Origin: Asterias amurensis
Lineage: Eukaryota; Echinodermata; Asteroidea; Forcipulatida; Asteriidae
DNA length: 64,000 bases
Assembly (NCBI RefSeq): GCF_032118995.1
Contig: NC_092649.1
Span: forward strand, 24,907,332-24,971,331
Direction of reading: 5' to 3'
Shown here: positions 1 to 47,820 of the stretch, one piece after another
Layout of the letters: the number at the start of each line of letters is the position of its first letter
Position numbering within the stretch: the first letter of the stretch is position 1
The notes under the pieces: generated by a model
What the model saw: only the letters and a program-made list of their open reading frames with translations
Told to the model about the DNA's origin: nothing
Database searches by the model: none
Position numbers and translations under genes: made by a program

Positions 1-976
1 AATGAAAATTTTGTCAGAAAATTTGTCGTCTAGTCAGAGTCTCCAAAACACTTCAAAAGTTTGTGTTTTCTGACGTAGAGCCGGCCGCAGTTGGAGTACC
101 ACATAAACATGAATGAGAGCATAAAACTGCTCTTACATGTAGCACAGGGCTACCACGAATTCAGACATAGTCTTACAATGTATCCCAGCCTTCTTATGCA
201 CTGTCTATACTGTCTAGAGCGCCACTTATAAGTATCCACTAGCAACTACCCTTAGTGCGCAAAAGGGTAGCAGCCATTTTTTAAACCACTTCACAGGCAA
301 CCATGGAAATGCCAAGGCCAAGAGCCATATGGTTTCATAGAAGCTGCAAAGTACCTATGCTTTTATATGTGAAGTTTGTTTCTGTATAAAGTCATGTACT
401 TGTTTGTTGCGCTGCAAAAAAAGGTAACACACAGAAAGCGATTTTTGTATAGAAAAACCAAATCAAACTGTACTAATTATGTTTGTCCTCTGGCACTTTA
501 ACCTCGTTACAATAGTTGCACACTTGTTGTTTTGAAATCTAGGTATTTAATGGTACACCACTTTGAACTGGTCTATTTTAAAATTGTTCTGTTAACATTG
601 TTCACTTGTGTTGTTGATATAGTAATGTTGAACACAGCTAATTATTGAGGGGGAAAAACCATGACACCACTAATTTGTTCTCACACAAAATTACTTTTTT
701 TATATTAGTTTTGAGCCTTGTTTGCATTGTTGCTTTGCAGAGTTGTTTTGAGTGATACATATAGACTTTGTGCATGCTGCATTTATGTAAAATAAATCAC
801 AACACGTGTGAGCCATCTATGGTGAAACACAATCAGTAGCCAGCCCAATGCAAGGTGCAACATTTGGCCAGTGAAGAAAACAAGATATCAAACTTCGGCC
901 TTTTCATTATAAAGAACCCTGATTTTTATTTTCCTTTTGCGAAACATTTACCGTCTCCCCCTTTTCTCTAACGAAG
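1..976 (+). other. Filamin intron upstream of the repeat 15 exon
   Basis: No coding exon seen. AT-rich intronic sequence ends in a pyrimidine-rich stretch (about 948-969) before the first acceptor. The preceding filamin exon must lie outside the window. Confidence 0.7.
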
Positions 977-1224
977 AAACAATCACCAAGACAGTTACTG
1001 TTGAGGAGGAGACAGTATTCAAGGTGAACTCGCGCGACGCCGGTAAGGGTCATGTGACCTGCACCATCGTTGGACCTGACGGCAAAGAGGTACCCGATTG
1101 TTCCGTTGTTGACAACGGTGACGGAACCTTTGACATCATCTGGACCTGCCCTGCTCCAGGAACCTACAACGTGGACATCAAGTTTGGAGGTGTGTCCCTC
1201 ACTGGTGGACCCATCACTATCAGT
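977..1224 (+). CDS. fln: Filamin exon: Ig repeat 15
   Basis: Encodes most of repeat 15: strand B with [11 protein letters not shown], then [19 protein letters not shown] and CPAPGTYNV. Human FLNA has KAAGKGKVTC and ENEDGTFDI at the same place. The donor GTAAGT at 1225 leaves phase 0. The 5' edge is less certain: the first AG after the pyrimidine tract gives 977, but AGs at 990 and 994 are alternatives. Confidence 0.9.
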
Positions 1225-13200: not shown

Positions 13201-16200
13201 AACCCCTTCTCTTTACGATAAGTGCACTGGGCTTGTTTACATGCGTTACACAACACATGGGACCAATGGCTTTACGTCCTATCCGAAGGACGAAGCAATG
13301 GTTACATGTAAGTGTCTTGCTTAAGGACACAAGTGCACGGCTGGGGATTTGAACCCACACTCTGCTGATCAGAAACACCAGAGTTTGTATTTGGTGCTCT
13401 TAACCGCTCGGTCACGACACTTCCCCGCATGGGAGCTTCAGTAGTAATTGATTGGACTCTTCATTTTACACAACTGTGTTTTAGTACAAACACAATCTCA
13501 ATGGTCTTGGTTCAAGTTCATCATCGGGCATCTTTTTATTTTTAAAGCGATGTGCCCTACCATGTGTCTGGTGGTCTGTGGTTCAAATCCCTAAGCGTTA
13601 TGCAATAAAAAGAGCTTAGCTATAAGTCTGTGAAAATGTTTAATCGGCTGCAACTTGCAATCAGGAGGGTTACTAGTTAGATGAGTGGTTGACATGTTAA
13701 GATACATCAGCACACAGGTTCCATTTTGTTGCATCCCTGTTGACAACACCTTGTCTTCTTTTCCGTTGCCGCTGTACTTAAGAAGCTCCAATGGACTTTG
13801 TACACAAATTTTCTTTTGGAGCACCCCAATCTTAAGAATTTCCCCTATGGAGACCTTTTCTCTTCTTGGTTTCCATAAGGTATTGAATATGAATAGACGA
13901 TGTGACCTCTGACGTCACATGAAAACCATAACATGATTTGCGTGCATACCGCCGGGCAAAACCTTTGTGTCTTGGCAGCCAGCTAGAAAGTGTATGCAAT
14001 CTTACCAGGACTACACGTCTTTTTGCCCGGCGAAACATGACGTATACAGTGTTTTGTCAACAGAGGGTGGTTTGAATGTAAACATACGTCACATCGTCTA
14101 TACACCATCATGTTATCAATTTTGTTTTAGCCTTTTTGAGAAAGACTCTGCTTGTATCAAAACGTCAGGTCATTAAATATTTTTTTTTTTGCAATTTTGT
14201 TCTTTTCTGTACACAGGGTGCAGAAGGCCCACCTGAAGATCTTATAGACTCCGAACAAATCATGCCACAAGAGTGTCGACCCCTCGAGCTCCAACTTCCA
14301 GTGTTGGGTGCTGGTCATGGTAACATCAATGGTAAGACCCTTTGTAGTATACGTTCGGACACTCACTTCAGTGAAGTACATTTTGTTTTGACAGTTTCCA
14401 ATAGGGCAGCACCGTCAGAAGGGGTGTACCACCCTCGAGTTGAAAGTTTCCGATGATCGTCAGCATTTACTACTTTGGAAGCGTCCTTTTCTCGGACATC
14501 TGCGTAGCTCATGGTGTGTTTGGTAAATAAACCTGTGAAACTCAGCTTGAAGCCGTACTTCCAGTTCTTTACTGTATGGTAACACTTGAAAGACGTTCAT
14601 TCTTTGGTTTTGTATCTTTATTGCCCATCTTTTGTTCTTTCTCTTCATCATTTTTGTGTGTGTGTATGTCACAATATGTTTTTTAATTGTTGAAATTGTT
14701 TCTCAAATGTGTGAATGTTTTGTGAGTTTTCTTTGTTTGTGTTTTTTATGTCAGTGTAGTTTTTGTTTTTCATCAGTGATTTTAAGCTGGATTTAGGTTT
14801 GAACAAAGTGTTTGTTATCCTGGCCTGTGGAATATCGGACCGCTCAAGGAAGATGTGGCCAACTGCCAACTTTTCACTTTTTATTTTATACGCTGCTTTA
14901 TTTTCAGAGACAGTTTTTGCTGTATTGGACTTGTTATAACTCCCAGCAGGTACATGTTTCTACAAAGATTCGTTTCGGGATAATTCGGGGGATTTTTTTT
15001 TGTTTTGTTAATTTGTTGCATGCGATTAAACTTGCTCGTATATCTAGCAGATGATCAACATGTGAACGGCGTTCAGTTAACCACGACCTCGGCAGGGCCA
15101 ACCGTCATGGTGCTTGATGTCCAGGCTTTACCATGGCGACCGGAAGTAGGTACGGATTAAAAAGCCTTCTCTAAGTTTTCCAACCAGACCTCAAGGTGTA
15201 CATGTATGTCTATTAGGACAGGGATCAATGTCAACTCGTGTCAGACCATTTTCTTTTGACGTGATTACAAATGGTTATAATGTGAGAAAATAGCATTACT
15301 ATCAGTGCCAACTACAGTGTTATTTGTAGCTGTTAGAAAATTAATACTTCACTTATGAAATAGTTTTTATATTGTATTAAATGAAAATACTTTTGATGGG
15401 GATTCTGTTATGTGCAATTAAGGTTCTTGTTAGCTCAAAAAGTGGAATGATTTCAACGCTTCTGTAAATTTCTTTGTAGTTAGTTCAAGGGAAATCGTCG
15501 GACCCAATTGTCTTTTTCAAATGAGCATCATCTTCTACAATCATGGCCATATCTCGTTGCCCCCCTCCCCCCTCCTGCCCCCTTTCAATGTGGCTCTCAT
15601 CGCACAGTCTTTTCATTCCCGTCAACATTGAGCGGGGGGACGGGGAGCATAATGTTGATTGTCAGGGGAAAGTGGACAGGGTATTGTAGCGTTAGGGTAT
15701 GGGTTTTTGGTGGGATTGTAGCTGTAGCCCTGGTAGGGTATTTCAGCAAAATTAGAAGCATTTAAAAAAAAAGTGACCACGTTCGTACAAAGCAAATTAT
15801 TCACCCATGAAAAATCATCCATCCCCCCCCCCAAAAAAAAAGACTCTGTATTTGCAGACGATAAAAGCAATAGCCCGAGTGAATCCGATGATGATCGGAT
15901 CTATTACGAGGATTTTGTGGTGGTAGAGGAGGAAGCTGAGTATCTAGATGATGTTATAGAGATAACCGTCATTGAGGGCGCTGGTAGCAGCGACGAATCA
16001 GAGCCATCAATTCAACAAGGTAAGAAATCTGACGGAATCAATTTTTGTTAAATTTATCGTTAAATCTGGTTTATTATAACTAGGCCTATGCATTTTGTAG
16101 CTTATTTGCTACAGATTTTTAAAAACAATCAAATGTTCGTCATTGGTAAAATTATCAAGAACCAGGCCTCGGCGGGTTTAAACCACTAGTTTAAAACCTC

Positions 16201-19200
16201 TTCACCACACATTGATTCCCTTAATAATAATCAGTCGTACTTTACTATTATCGAGGCTGAACACTATTGAAAGTACACAGAGATCAACTTGACCACTAAG
16301 AGCAAGTTCGAGTGTGCACAATGGTTAACTAAAGGTTGACCATTTTGACAAGAACCCAGGCTGGTCGACCATTGGTTGACTACTGTGGTCGACCATTTGG
16401 AACCAGCCTCGAGCCCATGGTTTCTTCACTGGTCCCAACAGCATGTTCCATTCTAACATGCGTTGAGTGCAGAGGGGAACCAGTGACACTTTAGCGAAAA
16501 TGTGGAAGGTTGACTAGACTAGCAAAAGAGTCGTTCGGGCGAGTACGTCACTGCGCATGTGCGTTGCTAGTCTGTGGTCGGCCACTGGTGGACTAAATGT
16601 GCGCACTCGAACTTGCTCCTAGTGGTACATGTAATACACCTTCCTCATTTTGTGTTTGCCTGTTCATATTGTTATGTTTTAATACAACTGAGCTAACTTT
16701 TCTGCCAACGCCTTCATTTTAAGTTTGAACTATTGAACACTTGTTCACAAAGCATGACTGTCTGTGGTTGGAATTTTCTTTACCCCTGTTAGTTAACATT
16801 AATTGAGGGATTTATGACTTATATTTCCCCCTTTTTTTTCAATCAGAACCAAAAATGTTCCCGAAACGGAAGAGCGTTGGTAGATCAATGAAAGATGCAA
16901 TTAAGAAAAGAACATCAAGATCTAATCTAGAAACACCTGGCGGCAAGATCAAGCTGGTTGCACGCATTAAGTCTTCAGGTAAGTTCTAGATTTTATAACA
17001 ATATTTCAAAGTTAGTTAAAGGCAGGGGACACAATTGGTAATTACTCAAAATGATTTTTAGCATAAAAACTTACTTGGTAATGAGTAATGGGAAGAGGTT
17101 GACAGTATAAAACATTGTGAGAAACGGCTCCCTCTGAAGTGACGTTGTTTTCGAGAGAGAAGTAATTTTCCACAAATTTGATTTTGTGACCTCAGAATTA
17201 GATTTTGAGGTTTCGAAATCAAGCAACTGATGAAAGCACACAACTTCGTGTAACAGGGGTATTTTTTCTTGCACAGTATCTTGCAACTTTGACGACCAAT
17301 TGAGCTCAAATTCTCACAGGTTTGTTATTTTATGCATATGTTGAGATACACCAAGTGAGAAGACTAGTCTTTGACAATTACCAATAGTGTCTTCTCTCCA
17401 TGGGGATCTTTTCTGAGGTGGAAACATTTTTAATGATTCACGGTTTTGATTTCAATAATTAATTGACTGAAAACAATCGTACAATAGTAGTTGATTCAAA
17501 ACAATAGACCGATCCATTAAGCTCCGCCCTATTGCGTATTGACCAATCTATAAAGTCCGACATGCGAGCACGTATGCTTGGCCCGCACGGCAGAGCTGTG
17601 CAGAATGGATTGGAGAGGCTCACATGTTCTTGCTCACACGTGCGTTGTGGGCGATGCCTAATGGATCAGTGTATTGTACAATGTGGTTGATTAATTGCTT
17701 AGCCATTAAACAAAATTTTGACAACCTTGTTTTTGTAGATAATGATGATTCGGCTAGCGACCCTGTAGGCTCAGGTGAGATTTAGTTCTATATTCCACTA
17801 AGACTCATTTGTGACCCGCTACGTGAAAATGAGTCAGATGTTGACAATTTCAAGAATTGAGTTGTATGCATGGTTGGAAGGAGCAGCAGTAATTTGGTAT
17901 ATGTCTAAGCTTTGGGGTGTGTCGCGTTGCTGAGTTACTCCCGTTTGAAATTAGCCAATACATAATTTTTTCTGAAAAACGAATTACAAGTAAAGTGATG
18001 TTTTAAACTACCATTTTGCCCGAAAGGATACAAATAAGACATAAGTATGATCACAAAATTATTGTATTTATAGCTTTATAGCTAAACTTTAAACTGTCCA
18101 TAACTTAATAATGCATTGGGCGACATCTGACTCATTTTTACGTAGCGGGTCACATTTTAAGTCGTTAATACTGCCGTTGTGATTTGTATCATGACACCAC
18201 ACTTTGCTGATTCTTATTATTCTTCTTCTTATTATTATTATTTATTCAGCCTATTCAACAATACATGACAATACAAAAATACTTCCAGATGGGCTAGGAG
18301 AAACAAAAGCAAAATAATTAACGATTAAGATTGATACACAGTTAAGGTTGATCTTGGCTCTTTGTGAAATCAGCCCAAGGATCTTTTCTTGTTTCTGAGA
18401 AGTTTTCCTCAAATAATGCATTCGTTTTTCCGAGTCAATTTAACCACTTACTGACAGTAAATTGGTTAAATTGATCCATATTAAAATGAAAATTTTTGAT
18501 AAATTACTCAATCTTCTGTGAAATAAATTCTGACCTCTGAAGTAAATTGTCCTTTCTTTATTTATTTTTTTATTTTTTCTTCACAGATTCACAAAGGGAA
18601 CCCAAATATCTTAAGCGTGTAGACAGCGTTGGTTCCAGGTTGAAGGAAGTCCTGAAAAAGAAAAAGACCAAGTCCTCCGTTTCATCAGACGTCTCGGAGA
18701 CTGGAGATGAAGACGCACAGAAGAAAGATAAAACAGGTGGGAAATGTGTAAACAATTAATAATAATAATAGTAATAACCAGTTTTTATATAGCGCTTTTC
18801 ACACCCGAAGGGCGTCTTAAAGACAGTGGACACTATTGGTTATTACTTAAAATAATTATTAGCCTAAAACCTTACTTGGTAACGAGTAAAGGGGAGAGGT
18901 TGATAGTACAAAAAATTGTGAGAAACGGCCCCGTCTGAAGTGACGTAGTTTTCGAGAAAGTTTTCCACTACTTTGATAAGACTGGTTTTTGAGAATTACC
19001 AATAGTGTCCAGGGTTTTTAAAGCCCTTCCAACATTATTACCCTGCCACGACCACTACATAAATAGTCCAGACTACTGCAAAAATAGTTGCAACTACCTC
19101 TTCGGTGAACCAATTGTGTCACTCAAAACTAGTCACGGCAACATAATTAACTTACAAAACACAATCAAACATCAGTGACACAATCTTTCAATCCTTTCAG

Positions 19201-22200
19201 CATGAGTTTTACTATATTGCGCCTGCGGTAAACATTTTGCTGCATTGCATCTTAGAATTTAAAATAAGTCGTGACTATTTTAGGTGCGACTAGTCGGGTA
19301 GTAAATTTTACTTCACTAGTCCCCCAGGCTTACTCATGATGTGATGCACTGGTGAAACAAGGAACGTAACCAAAATATCTGAATTGCATTGCAACTATGC
19401 AGGCACGTACTAGTGTGGTAGCGTAATCGAACATTTCTCATATCACTTGTGTGATAACACATGTATTACAACATTGGCAAGGCTTGTACGTTTTGAGTTA
19501 TTGACACTGTTTGACAAGGTATGGGGACAATGTAGTTTGGCACACCACATGTAACCATTCTACCTAAGCTACATGTGATCCTTGCATTTTAACTCATAAG
19601 TTTTTCCAATAATCTTTTCTTGTGTGTCTTTCTCAATGACTCAAAACCCAAACAGATAAAAAAGAGGCGTTCAAATTGTCGAAACGACTAAACCTTTCTA
19701 AGGTCATACGAAGCGGAAAAGCAAAAAGAGGTTCAGAGAGTGATGGAAATGGTGAGTTCAAAAAGTTTCAGGAATTATGGGCAGTGGACACTATTGGTAA
19801 TAACTCTAAATAATTATCAGTATAAAACCTTACTTGCTAACGAGTAATGGGGAGAGGTTGATAGTATAAAATATTGTGAGAAACAGCTCCCTCTGAAGTG
19901 ACTTAGTTTTCGAGAAAGAAGTAATTTTCTACAAATTTGATTTTGAGACTTCAGAATTACATTTTGAGGTCGCGAAATCAAGTATATGAAAGGATACAGC
20001 TTCGTGTGACAGTTTTTTCTTTCATTACTATCTTGCAACTTCGACGAACAGTTTAACCAAATTTGTTAGGCATTTGTTGAGATACACCAAGTGAGAAGAC
20101 TGGTCTTTGACGATTACCAAAAGTGACCAGTGTCTTTAAATGAATGATTTCTTCTTTATCTGATAGTGTATTCATTTCTGAAGAAAACGACTTTTAGTGA
20201 AATATGTGGTTGTCATATTTGTGTTTTTGTTTTTTCCTTCTTTCTTAGGCAAAGATTTTGAAGTGAATGCAGGTTCGTCCAATGTCTCGCACAAAAGAGG
20301 TTGGGTTTCACATTTCCTGGTTATAAAAATACCTTTTAGATAGATGTACAAGTTAGGGACAAAATTGTGAAATTTTTTAAGTTTTAGCATAGGATCCGTG
20401 TTTGAAAATTGGGGTGACTTTTTGGACACTAGGTGGCAGCAGACTTGCCAGGTAAATCCACTAATCTAGGTAGTATGCTCATGCACAAGCAATGAAAATT
20501 TACCTGGCAAGTCTGCTGCTATCGAGCGTTCCAAAGTTTCACATAAGATTAACATTATCCGAGCAGAAAAATGCTCATCAGATTTTATACAAAGGGAGGA
20601 AGACGCCAGCATCTCGTTAACTACCATTTTATATATTTGTCTGTGAATTCTGAAAAAAGAGACCTTTCCAAAGACGTCATACACTATTGTTGAATAGGCG
20701 AGCTATATATTGAATAAGCGAGCGACCCCAAAAGTAGGGCGGGATATCTCTTTTGTAGAACGATGGTATGTTATCTGGAGGTCGTTTGTTCAAGTCCCAC
20801 TCCTGTAAATTTTTCTTTGTTTAAACCCAAAGCTTAACGTTAAATGTGGTAAAGATAGACTCATATCTTTTAATACAATTTGGAAGGATACCCTCATTCT
20901 TGATGCAGGTCATTTTTGCTTATTGAATTGTTTGACCAAAGATACACAGCACATCTAATTTTCATTCATAAAATGTTTTACAAATTACCAATTTTTTCAG
21001 GAAACATTAATGATGTTTATAAAGACATTCCATTTGGATTCGATACTGACTTCGGACTTGACTTTGGAGGTGACAAATTTTTTACAATTTCTAAATGCAC
21101 TTTCGGTGTCCCCTACTATTCTTGTACACCAGTGTTAATTCATAGAAGTTTCTATGTAAATATTCATGTTTTAATGTGTAATAACTTGTGTATATATGTG
21201 TATTCATGTCTGTCTTAACTGTGTTAGAAAGTGTGAAAAGGAAGAGGGAATTGTTAACTCAAATGTTTTTGTCAAACCTAAAAATTATCCCTAATGGAAA
21301 TTTAACATTTATAAAAAAACAACATAGTGAACTAAATGTTTCTAATATTACAAAAAGTGTTTTTGGTAGAGGGTTTTTTAAATATTGCCAGTCAAAAGAC
21401 ATTTAAGTCTTGCGATGATTGCAAACTGTTGTATTCTACATGTAGCTTGACTTTGTAATCGTTATCTAACATTACTCACCTGGTTTTTTTTGTTGTAACA
21501 ATTGGTTGAATATTGGTTGAAATGGATTTAAATTTGCAGCAGTGAACAGCCTCAACCTGAGTACACAATATTTTTTGTGTCCAGTTTAAAAACCACTAAT
21601 GTCACAGTGTTTTTTAATCAATTAACAATTACAGTGTCTATTCTTGAGTTTGTCAAATTACAAGATTTACAAAGATTTCCTGTTGTTTATTTGGTGTCTT
21701 TGATACAAAAAAAGTACCCATAATTCTGGCTGTGCACAGCATCTTTACGAAAAGGCAAATATAGGAGTGTGTGTATTTCTTTATTTCAATGCCACTTCTT
21801 TTGACATCTCTGACATGAAGCCATGCAATTCAGAATGATTTACATCACCTTTTACCAGTAATGAAGAATCTGGTTTCCTGTACTATACTTATTGACAGAT
21901 ACAGCAAAATATCAAAAATAGCACACAAAATTGTTCAACTCAATGATGTCATTTGAAGACCAGGGGTCAATTTCACAAAGAGTTAGGACTAGTCCTAACT
22001 TAGGACGTACATCAAAAATGTACAGCTAGTCCTAAGTTAGGACGAGTAACTGGTCCTAACTCGAGATAAGACTAGTCCTAACTCTTTGTGAAACCCACCC
22101 CTGGCCTCAATTACATAAAGGACGGTACTTGGTCACAACAATGTATGCTTACCAGAATAGGGTTACCAACCAAACTACCATGTCACATGGTCTCCTGCTA

Positions 22201-25200
22201 TTTTTCCCGAGGAGAGAGTTTTTTCAGCTCAGTGAAATTGAACTCAAGTCCATTATCTTTACAATTATAACTGTGTGTTGATTAACAGTGAAATAAAACA
22301 GACTTGTTTAACTATTGATAAAGGAATCGCCTTTTATTTAATAGTGGTCACACCCCCCCCCCCCCAAGTTATCCAAGTTAACACTAATGTTTGCTTTAGG
22401 GCCTCTTTCTTCCCACTTTGTTTTATTCAAGCTTCAAATCGTCACACAAAGATATTGTCAAACTGTGTTCCCTTTCATGCCAATCTTTAGTTCTAACTAC
22501 CACTGGATTATTATAACATAATATTGTATCCTCTTTTCACCCTGTTAAACATTCTAATCAATTTACACAAATCTCAGCAGGTTCTGGTGACATGGACGAT
22601 GCAGCTGGGGATTGTTCATGTGGAGTTATTGACCAACGTTTTGTTTTAACTTGGGGTATTTTCTTTAAAACCTTAACAAACTTGTTGTTCTTATTGATGT
22701 TCAGTTTTAATGCACTTTCTAGTTTGAAAATAGCACAGGACTGATCAAGTTACTAATTAAAAAGTCGATAAGTTTTACATTTGCAGGTTGTACACGTAAC
22801 TTACATATTATAGAGAGCAGTTTCACAATGCATTGTTTTTAATTTCCAACTAGCCACCCAGCTAGCCTCGCTTTTGTGTATACAAAAAAAGTCCCTTTTT
22901 TTAGCAGGATGCTTGGTGTAAAATGGACAAACAAAATATGTGTGTCGAACATTTCAGACAATGGTTATTTAAACAAAATTTTAAATTTTCATAGAAAAGA
23001 TTAATGTTCAAAAATACTCTTTAGGTGCCATTATTTATGGGAATGATTTGTGCGGTGTGCATTATATCAACATAATAACAAATGTTGGCTTCAGTAGTTT
23101 TGGGGTGCATTTTTTCCTGTGTTAAATTAAAACATGTTGATTAATATTTGATGAAGGTAAACCAGGTGAGAATGGCCACCCAAGTGAGAACGATGATTTC
23201 ATTGAGGAAGTTATTGGCATGGAGCAGGTTAAACCTGTTGAAGCAGGTGAGGGGCCCAATTGCGGAGCAATCTTAAAAATCGTTAAAGATTCTATTGATA
23301 GCAATCTCGTATATCAGTTCAGCTTTCAGCTGATTTCAACTTTCTCTTTTATAAACTTCTCTTAATATTTATGCATGAGGTACGTCACAATGCTAACTCA
23401 AAACGAGGCTATAGGCGCAGCCACTGCAAGTGATGGGGGACGTGCGCCTCATTTTGGGTAAGGATTATGATGTCATGCATAAATATTAAGAGAGGCGTAT
23501 AACAGTACTATCGAAAACCAGAAAACACTGTACAATGTTAGGTGTGGTTGACCATTTCCTCTCTTTGTTCTCTTTGTACATTATTGAGAGACATACAAAA
23601 GTAATGTTTTTTACAGAAACCTCATTTTGGTTACGAGCAATAAAAATGCCTTCTACAAAAAGGAAATGGAATAATTATACTCTAGATTTAAAAATTCTCA
23701 AAATTATTTAAATAAAACAGAATTGTAGATTTCAGTTCTTAAAACTGCATGTTCTTAGTAAAAATTCCAAACTGGTCGGAAGTATGGGACCAGCAGTTAA
23801 ACTCTGTGTGATGTCACTACACAGTTACTCCAACATTCAAAAGCAGACAATTTGCATCATCACATAGTTAATCCACCATTCAAAGCCAGACAGTTTTCAT
23901 ATTCTCTAAGTATAAACAAAATACAAGTGTTTAAACAACGGCCGTTTAAGAACTCGTCGCTACCCTTTTATTCCCCTAGTTGTAAGTTCATTAAGTATTT
24001 ACAATTGAGGCTAAGCTAGCTCTGTAATTTCATGGACAGGAGTAAGCTTTGGAGCTTTTGAGGATGAGCCAGGCTCTCGGGACAAAGATGCGGAGAACAA
24101 AGATGACGCAGGTGAACACTTTGGTGGAGTTTTTCATTCTTCTGACTTACAAATTTATCAACATTTAAAGACACTAGACACTATGGGCAGTTTTGAGTTA
24201 TTGCCAATAGTGTCCATTGCCTTTAAATTTAACATACTACCATGAAACCTCTAAATAAATGCTTAAAAAATTATGATTTTAATGGTAGATGAATTTGTTT
24301 CAAACATTTGGTAGATATTTTAATTATTCTGACATAAATATTGATTAACATTTAATTTTTAACATACTGCCATGAAAACAAAATCTCTCAAAGAACCCCT
24401 CACAATTTGGTATTTAAAAAAATAACAATACAATAATGCGTATTTATTTTAAGCGCTATTTCATTTAGGTTGCAGCGCTTTAGCAAGCATCATACCTCAT
24501 CGGATAAAAAGAACATTCCAGAAAAGGGGGGGGGGATGAAAAGGGGTAAAACAAAAACATAAAAAAACTACTGTGAATTTGAAAGTAAAAGTGTAACTAA
24601 AACCTAAGGCTTTTCATTTCCATCAAAATTATTGACGTGAATTTTTGTGTGCAATGATAAATCAATACATCCAGTAAATTAACTAAATAGGTGAACGATT
24701 ACAAATGACACTTTGCGTAAACATCTTGTCAACAGCAGAGCCAACCTCGCCTAGCTTTGCGATGGGCTTTTTTCAAAAGGTCACGGAGCCCTTCCGAAGG
24801 TTGGGCGATCGTTTCGGGGAAAAGGGTGACAAGGATGACAAGGATAAAGGGCCCAGTGACGACTGGGATTTTGCCTTGGATTTGGAAGGGGATGTTGGAA
24901 AAATTGACGGTGAGCAGTGGTGTATGGATGATAAAGCGTTTATCTATTGATGCCTTGCTTGTAATCACTTCATCATTGCAAAGGACTACTGTTGGCTCAT
25001 CATATGTGGAAAGGCCATTCACTCATTCACACTGTCCTTTAGTTATACTATGACTTGATTAACAGTTTACTCTTAAATTGGGTTTCGTTTCTTCTGCACT
25101 CACCGCATTGATAAACCATGGGATTAGATCGTTGCATGCGAATCTGAAGCAGCTTAGTGGTAGACATTTGATGAAACACAATATTCTCTTGTATTGAACA

Positions 25201-28200
25201 TTCTTCTGTTTTAAGGTTCTTGGCGGGATATTAATTTGTATTTTTATTTTATTTGAGGAAAAATAATCCATCACTTTTGTTAATCAGTGTATATTTGATT
25301 TGCGGTAATGCCATTGGATAGTTTTTACTTTACCGTGTTTCATTTACAAATTTTGGTTGTGAACTCAAGGATTACTGTACTTGGCCAAGAACCCCATGGA
25401 TAGAAGACAAGGAAGGACGTTTTAGATTTAAATGAAGAGGAAAACCTCGGATAACTATTCAGGGGACAACCCACACAGCTAGTTGGGGGCCTGAGAACCA
25501 GTGTCCTAGATGTGAAAGCTCAGAAGAAAAACCACTACGCCAAACCGGCTGTCCTAAGTTGCTCTTGCAAGAGCACTCTACCCATCAACTATCACATGGT
25601 GTTCACTGCATATAATAATATACATTGATACCTCACCATGAAATTCCTTTAAAGGCAGTGGACACTATTGGTAATTACTAAAAAAAAACCAGCTGTCCAA
25701 AGTTGTTCTTGCGAGAACAATAGTAATAATAATAATAATAACAAGACTTGTAATGTGCACGTATCCACCCTAGTGGGTGTTCAAGGCGCAGTAAAAAACC
25801 AACAACAACAAAAAGAAAGAAAAACAAAGAAAAGCAGACACAAAAAAATTATTCCTTGAAAACCTGTGACATAAGATAAGTTTTGAGAAGAGATTTGAAT
25901 GTTGTGGTACAAAAACAAGATCTAAGATTAAGTGGTAAAGAGTTCCAGATGCGTGGCGCGGCTGAAGAAAAAGACCTGTCACCCCATGAGTGTCGAGAAT
26001 TGGGTTCAATGAGAAGAAGCATGGAAATTGATCGAAGATTTCTTGATTTCAATCTATTCTACCCATCAACTATCAAATGGTGTTCACTGCAAATCAAATA
26101 ATAATACACACTGGTACATTACCATGCAATTCCTTTAAAATCTATACTTTGTTAATCCTCAGAAACTAATAAAATAATTTATTTTATCTCTTAACTATTT
26201 AGTGAGTTGCTGAGTGCTGTCAGTGACTGCTTATTTTAGGGTCATGTCATTCTTGGTCAAACATTTCTACAGTAGTTACGTGCCATTTGTTGATTACAAG
26301 GTGGTACGGTAGTGTTTAAATCCCACATTGTACGCCAGTTGTGTAAAATACAAGGTGTAAGGATTGCTAACACCGCACCAAGTCGTGTATAAGCGCACCG
26401 TTTGGTTTGTGACAGGTTTTCTAACCAGATATTTATTAATCTGTCGTAAAAATTTACCGTCGTTTTTCTTTCAGGTGCTTTCCTTCCGCCAGAATTCATT
26501 GTGTAATAATTGCTGGGTAGTGTTTTTACCCCACACTTTTGATTGATCGTTCAAATGAGTTTGATTGGGGAATTTACAAATTGGCTCACATTAACATGAT
26601 GTTGTACTCTTGTAAATGCTTTTAAAACTACAGTCACATGCTTTGATTTTGAAAGGGCAAGGGCACCAAGGCATTTTTTCCTTGGTAAAGGGGAAACTAT
26701 GAGAAAATTGTAAATTTCTACTGGAGCTTTTCAAGGGCACAAAGGCGATGACCAGGGGCAACAGAGACAATCACCTCTGTTGCCTATATGAAATATAAGG
26801 CCTGCCTGCAGTCACAAACCGGTTATCTTTAGTTCACTTGAATGATCAGTCAGTTAAACTAGAAATTGAACACCCAATCGATAGTGACAACCTGTTTTTT
26901 CACATTAGCACTTTTCTTTTTCACAGAGGTAGCGCTGCGGCAACTGCTAACACTATTCATCACTTGCTTTGAAGCAACTGCCCCGTTAATTTGCTCACTA
27001 ATTATGGAAGTTGTATTTTACTTTTCAAATATTGTTGACCTAAAATTTCACTTTGTATGCGAATGATCCATGACTATCTTTTAGATGAAGGGAAACCAAG
27101 GAAGAATGGCGGACCTAACGATAGTGGGGATGAGATTGAAGAGATTATCGGTAAACAGGAAACAAAGCCTGTCGAGGCAGGTGAGGCAATTGGATGTATT
27201 GAACAAAACAAGTCCAAAATGGCGGCCATTTTTAAATCCAAGATGGTGAAGTTTCCGGTAGCCCTTAGAGTAAAAATGTTTGTATTGTGTTACTTTAACA
27301 ATGGGCCAAGTTTCATGCTTTTAAGAGAAAGTGCACAATTTAGCAGCTGAATCGCCCCACTACAGATGAAAACGAAAACTAAAAATGAAACGAGTGCGAC
27401 CATAAATATTAAGTATTTACGTTATTTCCTGGCATAGTTTGATTACAGCCATTCTGGGCTTTTCACTTACAAAGATATTGGCAAATTAGGGGAGAACACC
27501 AACATTAGGGCTACATAGCTCAGTTGGTTAAACGCCAGCGCAATAATCCGTAGGTCCTTGGTTCAAATCCCTTACTAAAGGCACTCGAGCCTTAATTATA
27601 TATTGTGTTAATTAGCCTTCAGTCTTAAATTTGCATTAAAGTTGTTACGCCTGTACTTTTAACCTTCTCCAAAAGAAGTTATTTCAAGTCAGAAGAGTCG
27701 CTCAACAAGAGTTAATTTAATCGTATGTGTTATAAACTGAACTGTTACGATTTGAATTTTTTTATATATTTTTTAAGAATGCATTAATCTTAAGTAGAAT
27801 CCACGTTATAATTTAAGCAGAGGCACTGATTCTAATAGCGTTAACTGTCTATTTTGTTGGTGTTTAGGAGTCAACTTCGGTGCATTTGTGGATACTCCAG
27901 AGGACGAGGGGGCTACCCCTGATGATGACGCAGGTGAATTGCAATTCACTAACGAACTATAATCATGTTTTTTATTCATTTTTTTGGGTCCTTTTTTTAA
28001 TACAAATTCTTGTGGGTTTTTTTTCCGGATAAGTTATTCATAGAGACTCATACTTTGAGTTGATCAAGAGCCACGAAACAAGAATACTACGCCTTGTTAA
28101 TTGTTCCCGGGGATTCCATTTGGATATGTTGCCCGATTAGGGTACTTCTTATTTTGAATGAGATTGAATAATCAAAATCTCTGCAAGGACAAATATATAT

Positions 28201-29928
28201 ATATAAAGGGCATAGTTCCCTGCATAGATCTCAATTGGATGTTCTGCTGCATAAGGGTACCTTCTGTAAAGTTGAATGAGCTTGAATTATCAAAATAGAA
28301 CTGTAACAATTCTATTTTCTACACATAAACAAACACATACATGTACGGAAGTGCATGGTTCCCTTCACACTCCGTATCCGCCCCCCACCAGGATGCTGCG
28401 CTTTCGGTTCGTTCAGTCCAAAAATACAACGTATAAAATGGTTTTCTACTTTAACAACAGGACGTCCGAGCTCCCCATCAGGGTCGGGTCTCAAGGGTCT
28501 CTTGAGAAGGGTCACTGATCCGATCATTCGGCATTTCGGGGATAAGCCTGGGGAGGATCCCAACGGGGAAGTGTCTCCCTTGGGCACCCCAAATGATAGG
28601 AACTTCGCCGTGGAAATTCCCGATGATTTTGAGCGTAAAGGACCGTTGAATGGTGAGTCTTTGGAGGACTCGTGAGTAGTCGGCGCAACGAGTCGGAGTA
28701 ACAACAAAAACACATCTACTACTCTCACTGGCTACAAATAAACTACTGCAAGCTCATTGTGTTTGATTCTAACATGGTCATCATCTTTAATTGGGCAATC
28801 ACGGAATGGACTGATTTGTTCTTTTAACCGTTTATCTCTAAATCAGCTATTACTTTTGGCACATTGATGTGACTATAATGATTTTTAACTTCATGAAACT
28901 TCAATGAGCTAATCCATTCAGATAATCCATAGGGAATTAAGGTGCAGGAATACTTAATATTAATCTCCTCTCAGATGGTATATTATCACTGGCACCAGCA
29001 ACAACAATATTACAATTTCACAAAACCTGCCGGAACACTTGCCTTCGAGAATTTCCTGACTGCCGAAACCATCATAATAGATTGGAGTATATGAAACTCT
29101 GTTAATTGTGGAATGGCCAAGGGGTTAAAAGCACCAGACTCTAGCTCTGGGGTTTCTGATCAGCTGAGTGTTGGTTTGAATCCTGTTCGTGGCACTGAAT
29201 TGTGTCCTTAAACAAGATTCTTCATTACTGCTTCACAGAGCACCAGACTCTAGCTCTGGGGTTTCTGATCAGCCGAGTGTTGGTTTGAATCCTGTTCGTG
29301 GCACTGAATTGTGTCCTTAAACAAGATTCTTCATTACTGCTTCACAGAGCACCAGACTCTAGCTCTGGGGTTTCTGATCAGCTGAGCAAGATGCTTTACC
29401 AAAGTTGCTTTGTCCTTTAGATGGGACATGAAACTGTACTTGCAAATTCTTTGAACAGAACCCCCTAAAATGAATAGAAGTAAACTTTATTTATCAGGAG
29501 TCGGATTTGTGTTTATTTAATTTACTTATTATTTGGGGTCATATAGATCACTAATACATGAGCTCATTGATTTATCTTGTTCTCTTCCTTTAACAATTTA
29601 ACCTTTGACCTTTCTTTTCCACCAGATTATTAGAAGGGTAATTTATCACAACTAATATTTGACACAGACGACATGCTATGTTTTGTTAATCTATGAACAT
29701 GCTTTTATCATTTTTTTGAGAAGGGATTCAAATTGCTATTTTGGTAACGGAATATTAACAACTTGTTTTTGTTTTTTCTCTCTCTTTAAATCATCACAGC
29801 TTAAACAGACTTCATCAAGAGTATTCTGACCTCTGACCTCCATCTTCTAACGCTAAACTTCTTTCTTCCAACAGTAATCAATTATTTCTCCCAACTCCAT
29901 GTAACATATTTTTGTCTGTATATATTTT

Positions 29929-29964
<36 letters not shown>

Positions 29965-32900
29965 CTAAATGTTTACAATTAATAATTATCACCTCTTTTT
30001 CTCCTGTCTATGCATCAACTTTACCATGCACATATTTCTTCTTTTTTTTTTAATCGTTCATTTTATTCATGTTGGTCTATTTCTGTTTCTCGTTGGTGAA
30101 TGTGTTTCTGTCATTTCATAATAAAGACTTCATTTTTGTAATCCATATACAAAAATTTAAGTGTTGTAGACTTAATTGTTGACATTCATGAAATACTGGG
30201 GTTTTTTAAGAAGGGTTTTGTTGCTGTTATTTTTAAGAAAGAAAAATATTATTTTGTATAGTTGTAAATGACTTAATGTGTCAAACTTTCTGTTTGCTAA
30301 ATGCAAATGAAAACCAAAAATTCTTAAAAGCCTGTCACTTTTTGCTTTTCAAATATTACTTGGGTTACGAACCTTAAAATTAAAGAATTTTTCAATTTTT
30401 TGAAAAATTACCTAAATTCTTTGTTATGTTGGCGAGCAATCAACACTCAACTTAAAGTTATCAAACATTGATTGAAATTAAGCAATTGCTACAAAGGTAG
30501 TCGTTGCCTTGAATCGGGCAAGTTGGTCTATGAAAAGCATTTGAAACTGTTTGTTATAAAATGCATACGGTCATAAAGATATTTTATAAGTAGAATATAA
30601 GGATCAACACAAATGTATTTGCACGCCAATTTGTTAGTGTTAGTTCGCAAGGTATAAGGAAAACCATGCAATTTTGGGGGATATTTGTGTGGATCATTAT
30701 ATTCTACTTTTAAAACAACTTCCAACCGTTTCAACTCGCCTGATCCAAGGTACTGTTTACCTTTAAGTTTTGAACACCCTGTGTTCTTCATGTGACCTTT
30801 GACCGACTTTTCCCACAATTCTTTGTCAAGGTGAGGTCAAGAGACCATCGGGTAAGAAGGACATTCCCACCATCACAGAGAACAAATCTGGCACCATCAC
30901 CGTCAAGTACGCACCACAGGAAACTGGCAAACATGAACTGTCTATCAAGTACGGAAGCAGCCATGTACCAGGTAAATCCTTAACAATGTTTTTGATTGCT
31001 CTGGGGTGGATTTCACAAAGAGTTAAGACTAGTCTTATCTCTAGGACTAGTCCTAAGTTAGGATAAGTCCTAACTCTTTGTGAAATCGACCCCAGATGTT
31101 TTGGGGAAGACCCACTTCAAGATATTCAATTACATTTTTGTTTATTTTTTTATTTTTTAAATCTTTAAAATACATCAAGATAACACTCCAAAAAAAGAAA
31201 GGAATTACAAAACTGGGCATAAAGTGAAATCTTAAGTACTTCAAAAGACCTATTGGAAAAAAAAAATAAAAGAATCTACCCCCCCCCCTCCCCCTCCTTA
31301 ATCAGCAAATCAAATACTGTACATAAAAATAATATGGAGACGACTGAACGACAGAGTGAGATAGTGAAAAAAAAACCTTACAATTTGACCGTGGAAACAT
31401 ATTGGTTGATATGAGTTCTATAAAGCGCAACTATTTTTCATTTCTAGGGAGTCCGTTTGAGTTCCACGTTGATGAGCTGAAGAGCGGCCAGGCTACAGCC
31501 TTCGGTCCCGGTCTGACTCATGGTATCTGTGGTGAGACTGCTACCTTCACTGTCAACACAAAGGATGCTGGACCAGGTATGTACATAATATTAATAATAA
31601 GACTTGTCATGCGCACATATCCACCCTGCTTGGTGTTCAAGGTGCAGTAAAACCCGGCAAAAAAAAACAAAAAAAAAAAGAAAAAAAAACAGACACAACA
31701 AAATTCAAGAGTATCATCATAAACTCAAGAACCCACTCAAAACTCATATCTTTCAACAAGGTGTTTTATCAAGGTTCTAGTATTTGTATATGTTTCGCGG
31801 GTTTCAGTTTGGTGAAGGTTTTTTTCTGCACATGGGGAGTCACTGTGCGACCTCATTCCAAGTGGTGTATGATCCTGCTGCGCCATTTTTTTTCTTTCCC
31901 CTGAATGCCTTGATTGATCTTAACCTCTGGAGTGCGTTTTGGCGACCCCCAACTAAAGCTCAACCGAGTCCACAAGTCATTTACCGGTTGGTTTGAACAG
32001 CATCATCACTGCGCTCAACCGAACACGCGAAATGCTTACCCAAGCCCAATGTTTCTGGTTGGGGTCGCCAAAACGCACTCCAGGGGAAGGCATTATGGGA
32101 AAGAAAACAAAATGGCGCAACAGGATCATAAAATAACCAAATATATTGGATATTTTAAATAGTCCCGTGGGTGATCCATTCTGTTTTGGAGACTATGCGG
32201 GGATATAGGAAGTCATAAAATAACTGGCCCTTCTCATTCTTTTTGATCTTGTGATTTGTCTAACTGTATGCAGTTTAGGGTGACCACATAAACACATAAT
32301 TCATTTGAAATGTATTGAGTCGAAATGCATTCATTTTTGTACACACGCATACTGAGTGCCCGACAAGAGCATCGTAATTAAATACTGTAAAAAGTACACC
32401 AACTGTTCTGTCTCCTATGAACAGAGAGTGTGAAATGAAGATATTTTACTGAAAAACTGTGATTTATTTTGTGCGTAGGTGGCCTGGCCCTTGCAGTAGA
32501 AGGTCCCTCCAAGGCGGAGATCAAGTGTGTAGACAACAAAGATGGAACATGTAACGTGACATACTTCCCACAGAAGATCGGCCAGTACGAGGTCACTGTC
32601 AAGTTCGCCGACAAGCATGTCCCAGGCAGTCCATTTAAGGCTAACGTTGTCGGTAAGTTCATGAAGGTTGTCCTAAAGGCACTTGGGTCGATTTCACAAA
32701 GAGTTAGGACTAGTCCTAACTTACATGTAGAACTAGTCCTAAGGGATATTAAAAATGTACAGCTAGTCTTAAGTTAGGACTAGTAACTCGTCCCAACTCG
32801 AGATAAGACTAGTCCTAACTCTTTGTGAAATCCACCCCTGGACACTATAGACCGTATTGAATATGTCTTCACGCGGCTCAAATATCTGACCTACAAGATA

Positions 32901-35900
32901 GCATCTGGGCGCGTGCGTGTGTGTGTGCCTGCATGTGCCGTAGAAATCAAACCAGGATTTTTGTGTGCAGCGTGCTTCGATGATGTACGCGTTTGGACGC
33001 GCATACAGTTTGCCCTACAATGTGGCGACTTTTCATAGCAAAAAGGGGTTATTCAATACGGTCTATTGATAACTATTCAAAATAATTGTTAGCATAAAAA
33101 CTTGCTTGGTATCGAGCAATGGAGAGCTGTTGATAGTATCAAACATTGTGAGGAAAAGCGCTCTGTGAAGCAACATTTTAGAAACAAGTTTTTAAGAAAG
33201 AGGTAGTTACTCACTCGGATATTAACATGCCTCAGGCTGGAAGCCTTTTATTAGGCATCTGAAAGCACACAAATTGGTGCAACAAGGGTGTTTTTCTTTC
33301 ATTATTCTCTTGCACCTTCCAATTAACTTTTTTTTTAAAATGGATTTCACATTTTATGTGGGTGGTGGGATACATCAAGTAAGGATAATGGGGTGGATTT
33401 CACAAAGAGTGAAGACTAGCCTTAGCTCGAGTTAGGATGAGTCAGGACTAGCCTTAAGTTTTTAATTTCTCCTAGGCTTAATGACCTGGGGTCGATTTCA
33501 CAAAGAGTTAGGACTCTTCTTATCTCGAGTTAGGACGAGTAACTCATCCTAATTTAGGAATAATTTTTAGGTCTGCATGCTACAGTGCAGGGTTGGGACT
33601 TGTCCTAAGTCGTAAGATTAGTCTGAAGTTAAGAAGAGTTTTGTGAAATCGACCACAGGGCACATTGGTAAAGTTATTTTGAAATGCGCTATATATAAGA
33701 ACTAGTTGTTATTATTATTATCCTTGTGTTTTACCAACAGACAAGGCAGGCAGTATGATGTCAATCGGAGCAGCTAGCGATGTTCCTCTTAAGATCACGG
33801 AGACTGACATCACTCAACTCAAGGCTTCCATTACTCCACCCAGTGGAGGAGAAGAACCATGCACTCTGAAACGTCTTCCCAACGGAAATATCGGTGAGTC
33901 CTCATGATGGAACTGCATTGAAAACCACAGTCAACAATGAAACGTTTTCCGACAGCTTTCTCTGTCTAAATGGCAAAAAAAAACATTAAAAAAATATCAA
34001 ACCTGTGTGCTGTGGACGCACAGCATTCTTCTCCTTGGAAAGATTAGACTTACAAAAAAGTGAATTCCCGCAGCCCAAACATTGATCAAGATGGACATGA
34101 AACTCGGCGGAACATGTCTGACTGAAGCGTCCATTGAAGCAAAGGATTGGGGGATACATTTCTGGTCCCAAAACAAAGTCTAAAAGGGTTTTCCAATGAC
34201 GAGCATAACATCACAAAATATGCTCTTGAAAATCAAGTACTTTGGCATTGGTAGCATTTTGCTCTGCTACGGTGTATCAGGAAGCTCTCTCAGCGAATAT
34301 AGTTTAAGAAGCTCTATGAAATTTGGTTCTGTTTGAGATGCCTGTCAGTTGTGATAACGTACAATATAAGAACTACATATTAAACTTGTTATTAAATCTT
34401 AAAGGGAAGGTACACGTTTGGTAAATGTCAATGACCAGTCTTCTCACATGGTGTATCCCATCATAACCATAAAATAACAAGCCTGTGAAAATTTGGGCTC
34501 AATTGGTCATCAAAGTTCATTAAAGAAATAAAAGACTTCTAGCTAGAAGTCTCTTATTATTTTAGTGAGAAATTACCTCTTTCTCAAAAACTACATTACT
34601 TCAGATGGAGTTGTTTCCCACAATGTTTTATACTACCCACAGCTCTCCAATGCTCGTTACAAAGTCAGTTTTTAAGTTAATATTTGTTTTGAGTAACTAC
34701 CAAACGTGTACCTTCCCTTTAAGAAGTTCTGAAATATGTTGTTTATAGTATATATCTTTTAATGAAGGGGGGGGGGCATTTTGATATTATCAAAATGTTT
34801 AATAATCTGACGTCTTCATTCCAACAGGTATCACATTCACACCCAAGGAGGTCGGGGAGCATCTTGTCACCGTTAAGAAGTTCAACCGTCAAATCCCAGG
34901 TAGCCCCTTCAAGATCATTGTCGGCTCCCAGGAGGTTGGCGACTCCTCTAAGGTCAAAGTCCGAGGGCGTGGAATCTCTGACGCCGATGCTGGCCAAATG
35001 GCGGAGTTTGTTGTGGACACCAGGGATGCTGGTATGTTGCTTTCTCTTCATGAAATTGTGGTTTTTGGTTGATTAGAATTGAAGTTCAAAAGAAGAAAAT
35101 GATGTTTACTGAACAAGTAAAAAGAAATCTCCAATTAAAATGATTTCATTGTCCTAAATAAATAAGCATGAAATTAAATGCATTCCAGATTCATTATAAT
35201 CAAGAATACTAAATGCAGATTTCTAGATTCACAGTTATAAAGGGAGAACTGAAAAGAAATAGAGCACTTTTTGCCCCTAAAACTTACTTTTTACTCCAAG
35301 AGCGGATGATGAAATTGCTAGTCACTAAAAGAAGTTAAGGGCAAACCCTACAAGGGAAAGTATATTGTAAAAGTGTAGCATTTGGTTTAAAGGGCAAATG
35401 TCGGCCCCAAAAAGTAGTAATATGCTTTTGAACTAGAGATTAACATCAAAAGTCAGTGTATAGACGATGTGACCTCTGACGTCACACGAAAACCATAACA
35501 TGATTCGCGCGCATACCGCCGGGCAAAACCTTTGTGTTTTGGCAGCCAGCTAGAAAGTGTGTGCAATCTTACCATGACTACGGGTGTTTTTGCCCGGCGA
35601 AACATGACGTATACAGTGTTTTTTCAACAGAGGGCGGTTTGAATGTAAACATAGGTCACATCGTCTATAGGCTCTAGGATAAAATTGCCTCGTTTTGTTT
35701 GACAGGCTATGGAGGTTTGGGTGTATCCATTGAGGGTCCTAGTAAGACTGAAATCAACTGCTCTGATCTTGGCGATGGTACGTGTGCAGTGACCTACAGA
35801 CCAGCCGAGCCCGGCACCTACAAACTCAACGTCCGCTTTGCCGAGCAGGACATCCCTGGTAGCCCGTTCAACGTCAAGGTACACCCAGAGGATGGTAGCT

Positions 35901-38900
35901 GCATGGAACCACTGATGCAGGCTACACTGGACAAGCCAACCCGGGCTGCTCCCGTATCGCACATTGGCAGCGAATGTGAACTTGGCTTGAAGATTCCAGG
36001 TATGTCATTGTACAGTATGTCTCTTGACGTCTAGCTTTAACAGATGCTAACTTTTATCAGGAAAAATAGTATAATTTGTTTTTACCCTTACACTGATGTG
36101 TATTAAGCTCTGTATCCTCAGTGTTTTCCTGAGTTCTGTGAAATCAGAGCATCATCTGTTGTGTTCCAAGCCAAGTATGGTCAAGCTCAAATCACTGCTT
36201 ATCACAGAATCATGTTCTGAGGGCCTGCATGCTTGTGAGGTGCTTAATTTTATGACTAAGATCTTTGTCACACAAGGCAATTTTTACAGGCATTTCGAGG
36301 CAACCAACTGCAGTGCATGCTTCCAGACCACTATGGTAGCATATGAGTAATTTTTCAAACAATGTTTTACGATTCCCAGGAATAGTATGTGTACATTCAA
36401 ATGTGAATTGGGTTGGAACTTGTAATTGCTGGGGCTGATTTCACAAAGAGCTGAGATCTTAACTGCAAATCAATCGTACATGTAGTTGCTTAGTAAAGTG
36501 TGATGTCATAGTACAAATCACTATGGTGATACTGAAGCTTTGTCTTACCATGGATTTTATTGCTTTGTGAAATCGAGCGCTGGAATAAATATTTAATAAA
36601 TAAACAAATATTGTCTATGATATATTCTTTATCTAGATACTGATCCACTGGACATGACAGCACAAGTGACTAACCCTAAGGGTAAGACTGAAGATGCTGA
36701 GATTGTTGATGGAGCGGACTGCCGCTACGTCGTCAGGTTTGTCCCCACTATGGACGGGGTCCACACAGTCAGCGTTAAGAGCAGAGGCCTGCATGTGCCA
36801 GGTAACTATGCATTGACACACATAGTTAAGACACCATTAATTCTGTCTTTCACTTTGACAATCCTAGGTTTGATTTCACTCACTAAGATTCATCTCAAGA
36901 TGAGTTGTCATTATTACCATTGGTAAAACATTTGTGACATCACAATAAAATTCAAGCAGAAGTATTTATGTGACAAATATGACATAATTATTTTATATCA
37001 TCAATATGAGTTTGCTTCCAGTGCTGCTCTACCTGTTTTCTTAATAGATTTTCTGTTGAAAGAGGAGTTGACAGATTTCCATGAATCCAGATTGTAACCT
37101 TCATGATGTAATTCTGCCACTAAGGCCCAATTTCATAAAGCCTTTATAAGCACAAAAACTTGCTACGCTCGGAATAATACAGCTTAGCAGAAACAGATAC
37201 ATTATGTTTGCATTGTTGTGGCTGGTCCCCTACTCAAGTTGTGCTCGGCAAAGAAATTTGTCAAGAAATATTTTCTGCTTAACAGTTTTATGAAGTTGGG
37301 CCTAGACCATTTGTTACAAAGAGGTTCACATGGCATTGCTGCAAGCATAAAGTCTGGACAATTTAAACCCACATTTTTGAAGAGAAAATATTTTCTTGAT
37401 TGAACCTTAGGATGGTCTTATCATGGTTATATTTGTTTTGTGTGTATTAACAGGAAGTCCCTTCCAGTTCACTGTTGGTCCTTTCGGTGAGGGAGGAGCT
37501 CACAAGGTCCACGCTGGAGGCCCAGGACTGGAACGTGGAGAGATCAATGTACCAGGTTAGTTGTTTGTTGTTGTTTATTTCGGCTGGTGTCCTCGAACTG
37601 TGATGGCCCTCCAGGGTTCAAAAGATTTACGTAGGTCATTCAACCACGTTTCCTGCATCATCCGTACAACTAGACCAGGTCTAAGATCTATCAGAAATAT
37701 GCTCCATGTTCCTCGAACTCGGCTGGTCAGTTATGGGGACAGGGCTTACTCCAACATAGCACCAAGACTCTGGAACTCACTTCCGGATTACCTCAGACAA
37801 ATGCACAACATCACTCTCTTCCAGCAGAAACTCAAAACACACTTATTCTTGCTTGCTTTCCAACATCTTGACAAAACTTGACCGGCGCCTTTGAATGTTT
37901 CTCCTTTTCAGTAAAGTGCGCCTTATAAATGCTGTAGTCTATTATTATTATCATGTTTTGGTTCCCAGTGGATGAGTTTTGATGCAGACTCTTGCTCTTA
38001 CTTAAGTGCCCAGCAAATCTTATTCCTCGATCCCTGATCTTATCACTCAATCTTGGCAACTCTTCATACAGCTCTGCGTTTGTCATTCGCTGTTTCCAGT
38101 CAACATTTAGGAACATCCAAACCCTTACCTTATTCTCTGCCCCCCCTCCCCCCTCCCCCCTCCAACCTCGTCTGTCCCTTTCCTTACCCTAAACCTATTC
38201 CCTATTATTTGCAGTCGCCTCTGAATTCCTCCATATCTTCAACCAATAACAATGTTCATCTCTTCAGAAACAACATGAAATAGAAAATTTAGTATTTTGT
38301 TATAGAAGTTGGGATACTCTGTTAACATACTACGTCGGAAAATTTCATATCCAGACATGACCTTTACTTTGACCTCTTGAATTGAAGTAGGTCTAACCTT
38401 GAAGATGTTTGTACATGTGGCTGCTATGGGCAGTTTGGTACCAGCCGCTTGTGGCTGCTATGGGCAGTTTGGTACCAGCCGCTTGTGGCCGCTATGGTCT
38501 CTAAATGCTTAACAAAACAAGGATTTCAACAGAGAGCAGTTTACCTATAAACAAAGGGCACATGGTCTATACACCCAGTGTCTCGTTGGTGCTAAGCAGT
38601 CCCTGCACACCTTTTAATGGCGTATTAATGCTTCATTTCTAATCATTGTCTGCCACAGCTGAGTTCACCGTCTGGACACGTGAAGCTGGTCCCGGAAAAC
38701 TTAGCATCTCTGTGAAGGGTCCTGCTAAGGCCAAGATTGACATCCAAGACAACAAAGATGGCTCCTACCAAGTCATCTATACACCAACAGCACCAGGTGA
38801 TTACAAACAAAATTCTTGGTTTTAAAATAAAAGCAAGAAATCTTCCCTCATTTTCTTAAAGGCACTGGACACTATTGGTAATTACTCAAAATAATTGTTA

Positions 38901-47660: not shown

Positions 47661-47820
47661 AGTCACCGTGGTCAAGTGGTTAGACTGCACTGGACTTGCA
47701 ATCACAAGGTTGTGGGTTTGAATCCCCCAGCTAACCGCTGACTTCACAATGACTAGAATAAATATTGTCGTCTAGTTAATGAATCACAATTTCTTGATTT
47801 GTGTATTTCATAATAGACAT
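47661..47820 (+). mobile_element. tRNA-like SINE
   Basis: A-box GTGGTCAAGTGGTTAGACTG and B-box GGGTTTGAATCCCCC with a loop reading CTTGCAA. The acceptor stem does not close, and the tail is unrelated. Probably a SINE, possibly a tRNA pseudogene. Confidence 0.6.

Follow-up and report, generated by a model that had tools for sequence, protein, structure and literature searches.

An alternatively spliced cassette array within repeat 16 of a starfish filamin gene and its predicted effect on hinge 1

The filamin gene of the starfish Asterias amurensis raises the question of how a folded repeat can be interrupted by a long array of optional exons, and what becomes of that repeat when they are spliced in. 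The window analysed, 64,000 nucleotides (nt) of contig NC_092649.1 (positions 24,907,332 to 24,971,331; assembly GCF_032118995.1), contains the 3' part of the gene at 976-44166 on the plus strand, comprising repeats 15-24 and the stop codon. Immunoglobulin-like (Ig) repeat 16 is cut between strands B and C by intron 14332-30830, in which a sequence-only reading had placed at least 14 cassette exons (E1-E14; Table 1). In the interpretation preferred here, the array is alternatively spliced and determines how long hinge 1 is and what it contains, and a second strand B carried by E14 keeps Ig16 folded; the probability of this interpretation was put at roughly 0.6.

Without the cassettes, the two exons flanking the intron (R16a and R16b) joined into an uninterrupted alignment to human FLNA domains 16-17 (2k7p, E 1e-65), and the joined exons matched PF00630 (filamin Ig repeats) in 6 stretches at E 6e-100. 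PF00307 (CH domains, actin binding) was listed for the matching protein P0001, the A. rubens filamin-A-like isoform X2, and the corresponding gene part lies upstream of the window. P0001 possessed an insert of 229 residues, which differed from the window model by three substitutions and one optional alanine; outside the insert there was one substitution, while a difference at the first residue and 7 missing residues stem from approximate exon edges in the window model. The optional alanine, not in P0001, belongs to E11, whose NAGNAG acceptor allows a start at 24736 or 24739.

All 14 claimed segments were recovered with AG/GT borders, a length that is a multiple of three, phase 1-1 and one G left at the end, and they amounted to 1458 nt or 486 codons. 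For a chance test, splice-site matrices built from the constitutive exons of the gene were used to search for open segments in phase 1-1 with a length of 60-220 nt. The thresholds were set at the fourth-weakest cassette site, so that the contrast with the controls is informative and the absolute number is not. The plus strand of the cassette intron gave 13 candidate exons at 9 exon loci, several of them overlapping variants, compared with 2 on its minus strand; intron 1225-14216 gave 1 on one strand and 2 on the other, and the plus strand of 44300-64000 gave 5. E1, E6, E8 and E10 fell under a threshold, E7 was too short for the scan, and several cassette splice sites scored weaker than the constitutive ones on which the matrices had been trained. 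An additional exon spotted by eye near 22580-22654 was not in the candidate list.

The homology support was different from exon to exon. E9-E14 were all present in P0001, and E3, E5, E6 and E8 matched the Patiria isoform P0006 (shuffle p 0.002). E3 matched a Patiria segment also matched by E5, and against its own separate segment it gave p 0.001. Moreover, none of 500 shuffled orders aligned to the Patiria block as well as E1-E8 in their actual order, whose score was driven by the strong exons. Tested one by one, E2 and E4 showed no significant homology (p 0.25-0.99); for E1 the values were 0.78-0.92, or 0.034 if its first 40 residues alone were offered, and for E7 they were 0.046-0.83 with the best match out of order. 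The claim of at least 14 cassettes thus holds individually for the ten (E3, E5, E6, E8-E14) that are conserved as open frames in starfish filamins, and E1, E2, E4 and E7 are plausible members with absent or weak homology.

The use of the cassettes was read from protein isoforms, to which exons were assigned by alignment and by eye. The X isoforms are computational predictions that as a rule have support from RNA sequencing. In Patiria, X9 contained none of the cassettes, X7 contained E12-E14, X6 E9 and E12-E14, X5 E9 and E11-E14, and both X8 and X2 an E1-E8-type block with E12-E14, which makes five combinations in 6 proteins, as in a combinatorial cassette array. Two Acanthaster proteins had E9 and E11-E14, and P0001 had E9-E14. 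Full skipping was found in P0129 (Patiria X9) and the starfish-like P0128, so the cassettes are not constitutive, and the earlier expectation that skipping all of them gives a normal filamin was borne out. Nor are they mutually exclusive, as E9 with E12 and E11 with E14 co-occur in P0001 and P0002. Inserts were present in 8 of the 10 starfish or starfish-like proteins and included E12-E14 in all 8; E10 occurred in one protein, and the E1-E8-type block in two, never with E9-E11. This is a small sample, and the clusters contain further members (10 for P0001, 5 for P0004 and 4 for P0006). In-frame alternative subsets were therefore found as proposed, whereas free combination of any subset was not seen, and cassette use looks modular in these protein models. 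The insert reached 229 residues in the A. rubens E9-E14 form; where Patiria isoforms combined the E1-E8-type block with E12-E14, it reached 419-420 residues.

Part of the array arose by an old three-exon duplication. E9-E11 and E12-E14 are paralogous triplets, with 17/30, 13/22 and 19/58 identical residues in the successive exon pairs. The pooled proportions of synonymous (pS) and nonsynonymous (pN) differences were 0.73 and 0.37, the introns were not alignable, and outside E9/E12 the aligned stretches between the copies were all 21 nt or shorter. Both copies are present in Patiria, and the duplication is therefore older than the Asterias-Patiria split. Between these genera, the identity was 118/194 in the insert against 637/700 downstream; within E14, it was 21/28 in the tail against 18/33 in the remainder.

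As to distribution, an insert-alone search of about 5.8 billion proteins scored 7983 candidates, of which 7 reached E <= 1; each of the 7 was a filamin from a starfish (Asterias 1, Patiria 4, Acanthaster 2). A separate nested gene is ruled out by the position of the insert within filamin proteins. A hinge search gave 15 matches: the same 7 starfish proteins, P0128, 2 more from Patiria, 3 from sea urchins and 2 from crinoids. The three sea urchin filamins were without insert; crinoid P0134 had none over the 38 residues preceding strand C, and P0135 was the same over the last 19. No interruption at the insertion point was present in the proteins examined from sea urchins, crinoids, molluscs and vertebrates. 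Furthermore, of 127 proteins measured (7 starfish and the best 120 of 2058 matches), 99 had 29-72 residues between repeat 15 and strand C; P0009, one of the 127, was normal at the insertion point when read directly. The array is thus real and, as far as these protein comparisons go, starfish-only, provisionally so because brittle stars, sea cucumbers and hemichordates were not among the matches listed. No Pfam domain was found in the Asterias insert at E <= 1 or in a Patiria insert at E <= 0.1, and no PDB sequence matched the insert at E <= 1.

The insert had been described as charged and disordered, and charge composition, charge-hydropathy and AlphaFold2 agreed in predicting this. Joined together, the 14 cassettes (486 residues) contained 22% D/E and 15% K/R, and their mean hydropathy of 0.390 lay below the Uversky boundary of 0.441, on the disordered side, while the C-terminal repeats lay above their own boundary (0.466 against 0.416). 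Basophilic sites of the form [RK][RK]x[ST] occurred at 1.23 per 100 residues in the insert compared with 0.18 in P0001, which was counted including its own insert. This density makes phosphorylation of the insert plausible, no more. Repeated basic amphipathic helices in E3, E5 and E6 were unsupported in Asterias (p 0.22, 0.28 and 0.94); the amphipathic helix test gave p < 0.05 in 4 of 10 segments (E11 and E14 of Asterias, and in Patiria E11 together with one segment of the block).

The fate of Ig16 depends on the tail of E14, which resembles the strand B that it would replace. Against a profile of 42 unique R16a tails, E14 had absolute scores of only -17 to -20, yet these were above those of shuffles (p 0.007-0.021). 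The vertebrate tails were one residue out of register in this profile, so the comparison was repeated with four echinoderm tails, and the shuffle p values were 0.0014, 0.00015 and 0.0003. MAFFT also aligned the E14 tail opposite R16a of the urchin, crinoid, mollusc and vertebrate rows; it gave no alignment placing R16a of other filamins on the original strand B, and the modelled control was the no-insert form. In the AlphaFold2 model with insert, a strand was predicted at 250-255 in the E14 tail, with predicted local distance difference test (pLDDT) block means of 82 and 91, while the original strand B had a pLDDT of 35 and no strand; in the control, the strand was LELQLP in R16a. Ig16 in the insert model had a pLDDT of mostly 81-94. 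The alignment of human FLNC domain 16 (2d7n) started at model residue 248 when the insert was present and at 21 when it was not, these ranges being defined by the first and last aligned residue alone, and the fold comparison rows mainly concerned domain 17, those of domain 16 being few with a root-mean-square deviation above 4. The insert model was without the 16-17 packing present in the control, perhaps an artefact, because this model is poor between domains. The earlier placement of the insert in the B-C loop was thus correct for the insertion point, which lies between strands B and C, and less so for the product: with the E14 tail used as strand B in the prediction, an extension of hinge 1 is more likely than a loop out of the domain.

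The cassettes could then act as follows. When all are skipped, a normal Ig16 would form. The insert forms terminate in E12-E13-E14, and with the strand B brought by E14, Ig16 should still be foldable and hinge 1 longer. The original strand B and everything up to the E14 tail would turn into a single disordered linker joining rods 1 and 2, longer by 229 residues (A. rubens E9-E14) or by 419-420 residues (Patiria E1-E8-type block with E12-E14). This linker would carry charged, possibly phosphorylated short motifs, and splicing could select both hinge length and binding sites, with possible effects on hinge mechanics, phosphorylation, proteolysis, partners and tissue control. Hinge 1 is a determinant of the flexibility of filamin actin cross-links and a protease-sensitive control point. 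Starfish have regenerating and stiffness-changing tissues, which would permit a direct test, and if the interpretation is true, it shows how a folded repeat can take up large disordered modules and keep its fold. Hinge 1 links rods 1 and 2, and simulations of human 16-17 show the interface opening before domain 16 unfolds, as reported in a section of PMC5484675; calpain sensitivity of hinge 1 and its splicing in FLNB and FLNC are described in parts of PMC7216277 and PMC7714767.

Other explanations were weighed against the same evidence. The original strand B may stay in Ig16, with the insert as a disordered B-C docking loop like the Ig20 insertion of filamin C. This is possible, though unlikely: the insertion point is equivalent to the place of the 82-residue filamin C insert in the homologous domain, an insert required for self-interaction of domains 19-21 according to a passage of PMC7650280, but the tail of E14 is strand-B-like and was used as a strand in the prediction. 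R16a is also well conserved in the insert-bearing starfish, an indecisive point because R16a is common to the skip forms. Slightly less likely again is a strand-swap switch, in which force, phosphorylation or a partner would pick between the two rival strand Bs and toggle the linker between a closed loop and a hinge hundreds of residues longer.

The insert might instead disable Ig16, so that neither strand B completes the domain, the 16-17 pair opens and inclusion is an off-switch for the pair. The missing 16-17 packing would fit, as would the unfolding of domain 16 under force once the interface has opened (simulations in the same section of PMC5484675). The high pLDDT of Ig16 with the insert, the possible artefact in the packing and the better conservation of the E14 tail than of the rest of the exon make it improbable. 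That the segments are chance open frames or mis-annotations without a real product draws on the four cassettes without a clear homologue and on the low-scoring splice sites; it is very hard to reconcile with an insert within filamins of three starfish genera, the candidate enrichment over controls and the colinear block, and it is already contradicted for the ten conserved cassettes.

Table 1. Coordinates of the filamin exons, the interrupting intron and its cassettes in the window
Feature	Position	Strand	Evidence and remarks
Filamin exon, repeat 15	976..1224	+	Translation, match to P0001; start in window approximate
Exon R16a, hinge 1 and strand B of repeat 16, ending in phase 1	14217..14331	+	P0001 match; strand B is LELQLP in no-insert model
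Intron containing the cassette array	14332..30830	+	Segment check, splice scan
E1	15051..15149	+	Open 1-1; weak homology, p 0.034 in restricted test
E2, acidic	15858..16019	+	Open 1-1, passes splice scan; homology not significant
E3, basic, KRxSVG motif	16847..16978	+	Homologous to Patiria P0006
E4	17739..17774	+	Open 1-1; homology not significant
E5, basic, KRxxSVG motif	18587..18736	+	Homologous to Patiria P0006
E6, basic	19656..19751	+	Homologous to Patiria P0006
E7, 24-nt microexon	20249..20272	+	Open 1-1; homology gives no support
E8	21001..21069	+	Homologous to Patiria P0006
E9, first copy in duplicated triplet	23157..23246	+	A. rubens P0001; Patiria and Acanthaster counterpart in alignment
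E10, GVSFGAF motif	24040..24111	+	A. rubens P0001; absent from Patiria and Acanthaster isoforms examined
E11, conserved 18-residue segment, NAGNAG acceptor	24736..24909	+	P0001, P0002, P0004
E12, second copy of E9	27085..27180	+	P0001, Patiria; E9 paralogue
E13, second copy of E10	27868..27933	+	P0001, Patiria, Acanthaster; E10 paralogue
E14, second copy of E11	28461..28652	+	Last 57 nt encode predicted substitute strand B (19 residues); homology, alignment, AlphaFold2
Exon R16b, repeat 16 from strand C on	30831..30971	+	Translation, human FLNA and P0001 alignments
Further filamin exons, repeats 16-24, stop codon 44164-44166	31448..44166	+	Translation, P0001 match; last exon starts at 43979

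Further features of the window are given here. A dispersed repeat of about 370 base pairs (bp) lies in three cassette introns (17016-17395, 18817-19009, 19780-20125) and elsewhere, with 17 BLAST matches in the window including itself. A tandem repeat at 29130-29386, between E14 and the next exon, has a 109-bp offset and 98.6% identity over 148 bp. No RNA family reached the gathering threshold in 14200-31000, and ARAGORN reported a tRNA-Ser (AGA) at 3229-3299 (+), within the 13-kb intron preceding hinge 1. Downstream of filamin, a homeobox-like open reading frame (ORF) and a 767-residue open frame at 49639-55663 (+) were labelled by visual inspection of the ORF list, and an open frame at 58940-59479 (-) resembles, also by eye, a cytochrome b561-type membrane protein.

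Inserts in filamins and splicing at the hinges both belong to known kinds, and the insert sequence, already public, is not itself new. The sequence-only reading knew of no described filamin with such an insert; no paper on a filamin splice array in starfish or amphioxus was found among the search results listed, but insert-bearing protein models were already in public databases. Nor did the listed results include a multi-exon array within Ig16 that carries a spare strand. In amphioxus, optional hinge-1 segments are likewise used in combinations, and 20 isoforms had 10 distinct hinge-1 lengths from 0 to 605 residues. These segments differ from the starfish cassettes in lying before strand B of repeat 16, with length variation before that strand and none after it in the 20 proteins, and in a largely unrelated sequence except for a GVxFGA motif (local alignment p 0.01-0.06). 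Among 135 filamin proteins, the motif G[VI]xFGA[FLM] was found only in the 8 insert-bearing starfish proteins and in two long amphioxus hinge-1 isoforms (P0034, P0036); in the window, it occurs in E10 and E13. Either shared ancestry or a convergent binding motif would account for this. The amphioxus isoform X26 (P0017) has about 590 coiled-coil-like residues in hinge 1, with weak Pfam matches below the cut-off, and is either a real isoform or a model error.

The filamin C insertion, like the starfish array, interrupts an even-numbered domain of rod 2 between strands B and C, and it has many charged and S/T residues; filamin C proteins P0127 and P0054 had 82 residues more than FLNA between these strands of Ig20. 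A passage of PMC7216277 relates this insertion to Z-disc targeting via partners such as myotilin. It differs from the array in being in Ig20 rather than Ig16 and a single insert rather than many exons, with no spare strand B noticed and a sequence unrelated by eye. Ig20 of P0001, identical there to the window model, had an FLNA-like B-C spacing of 13 residues. Another part of PMC7216277 describes alternative splicing in vertebrate FLNB and FLNC (exon 32) that alters the linker between repeats 15 and 16, the same linker that changes in starfish, and among the proteins measured the vertebrate hinge 1 had short (about 33 residues) and long (about 65 residues) forms. In the starfish gene, the intron preceding strand B, 1225-14216, was at background candidate density. 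The vertebrate system thus consists of one exon in a short hinge before strand B, whereas the starfish array consists of many exons after strand B and provides hundreds of residues.

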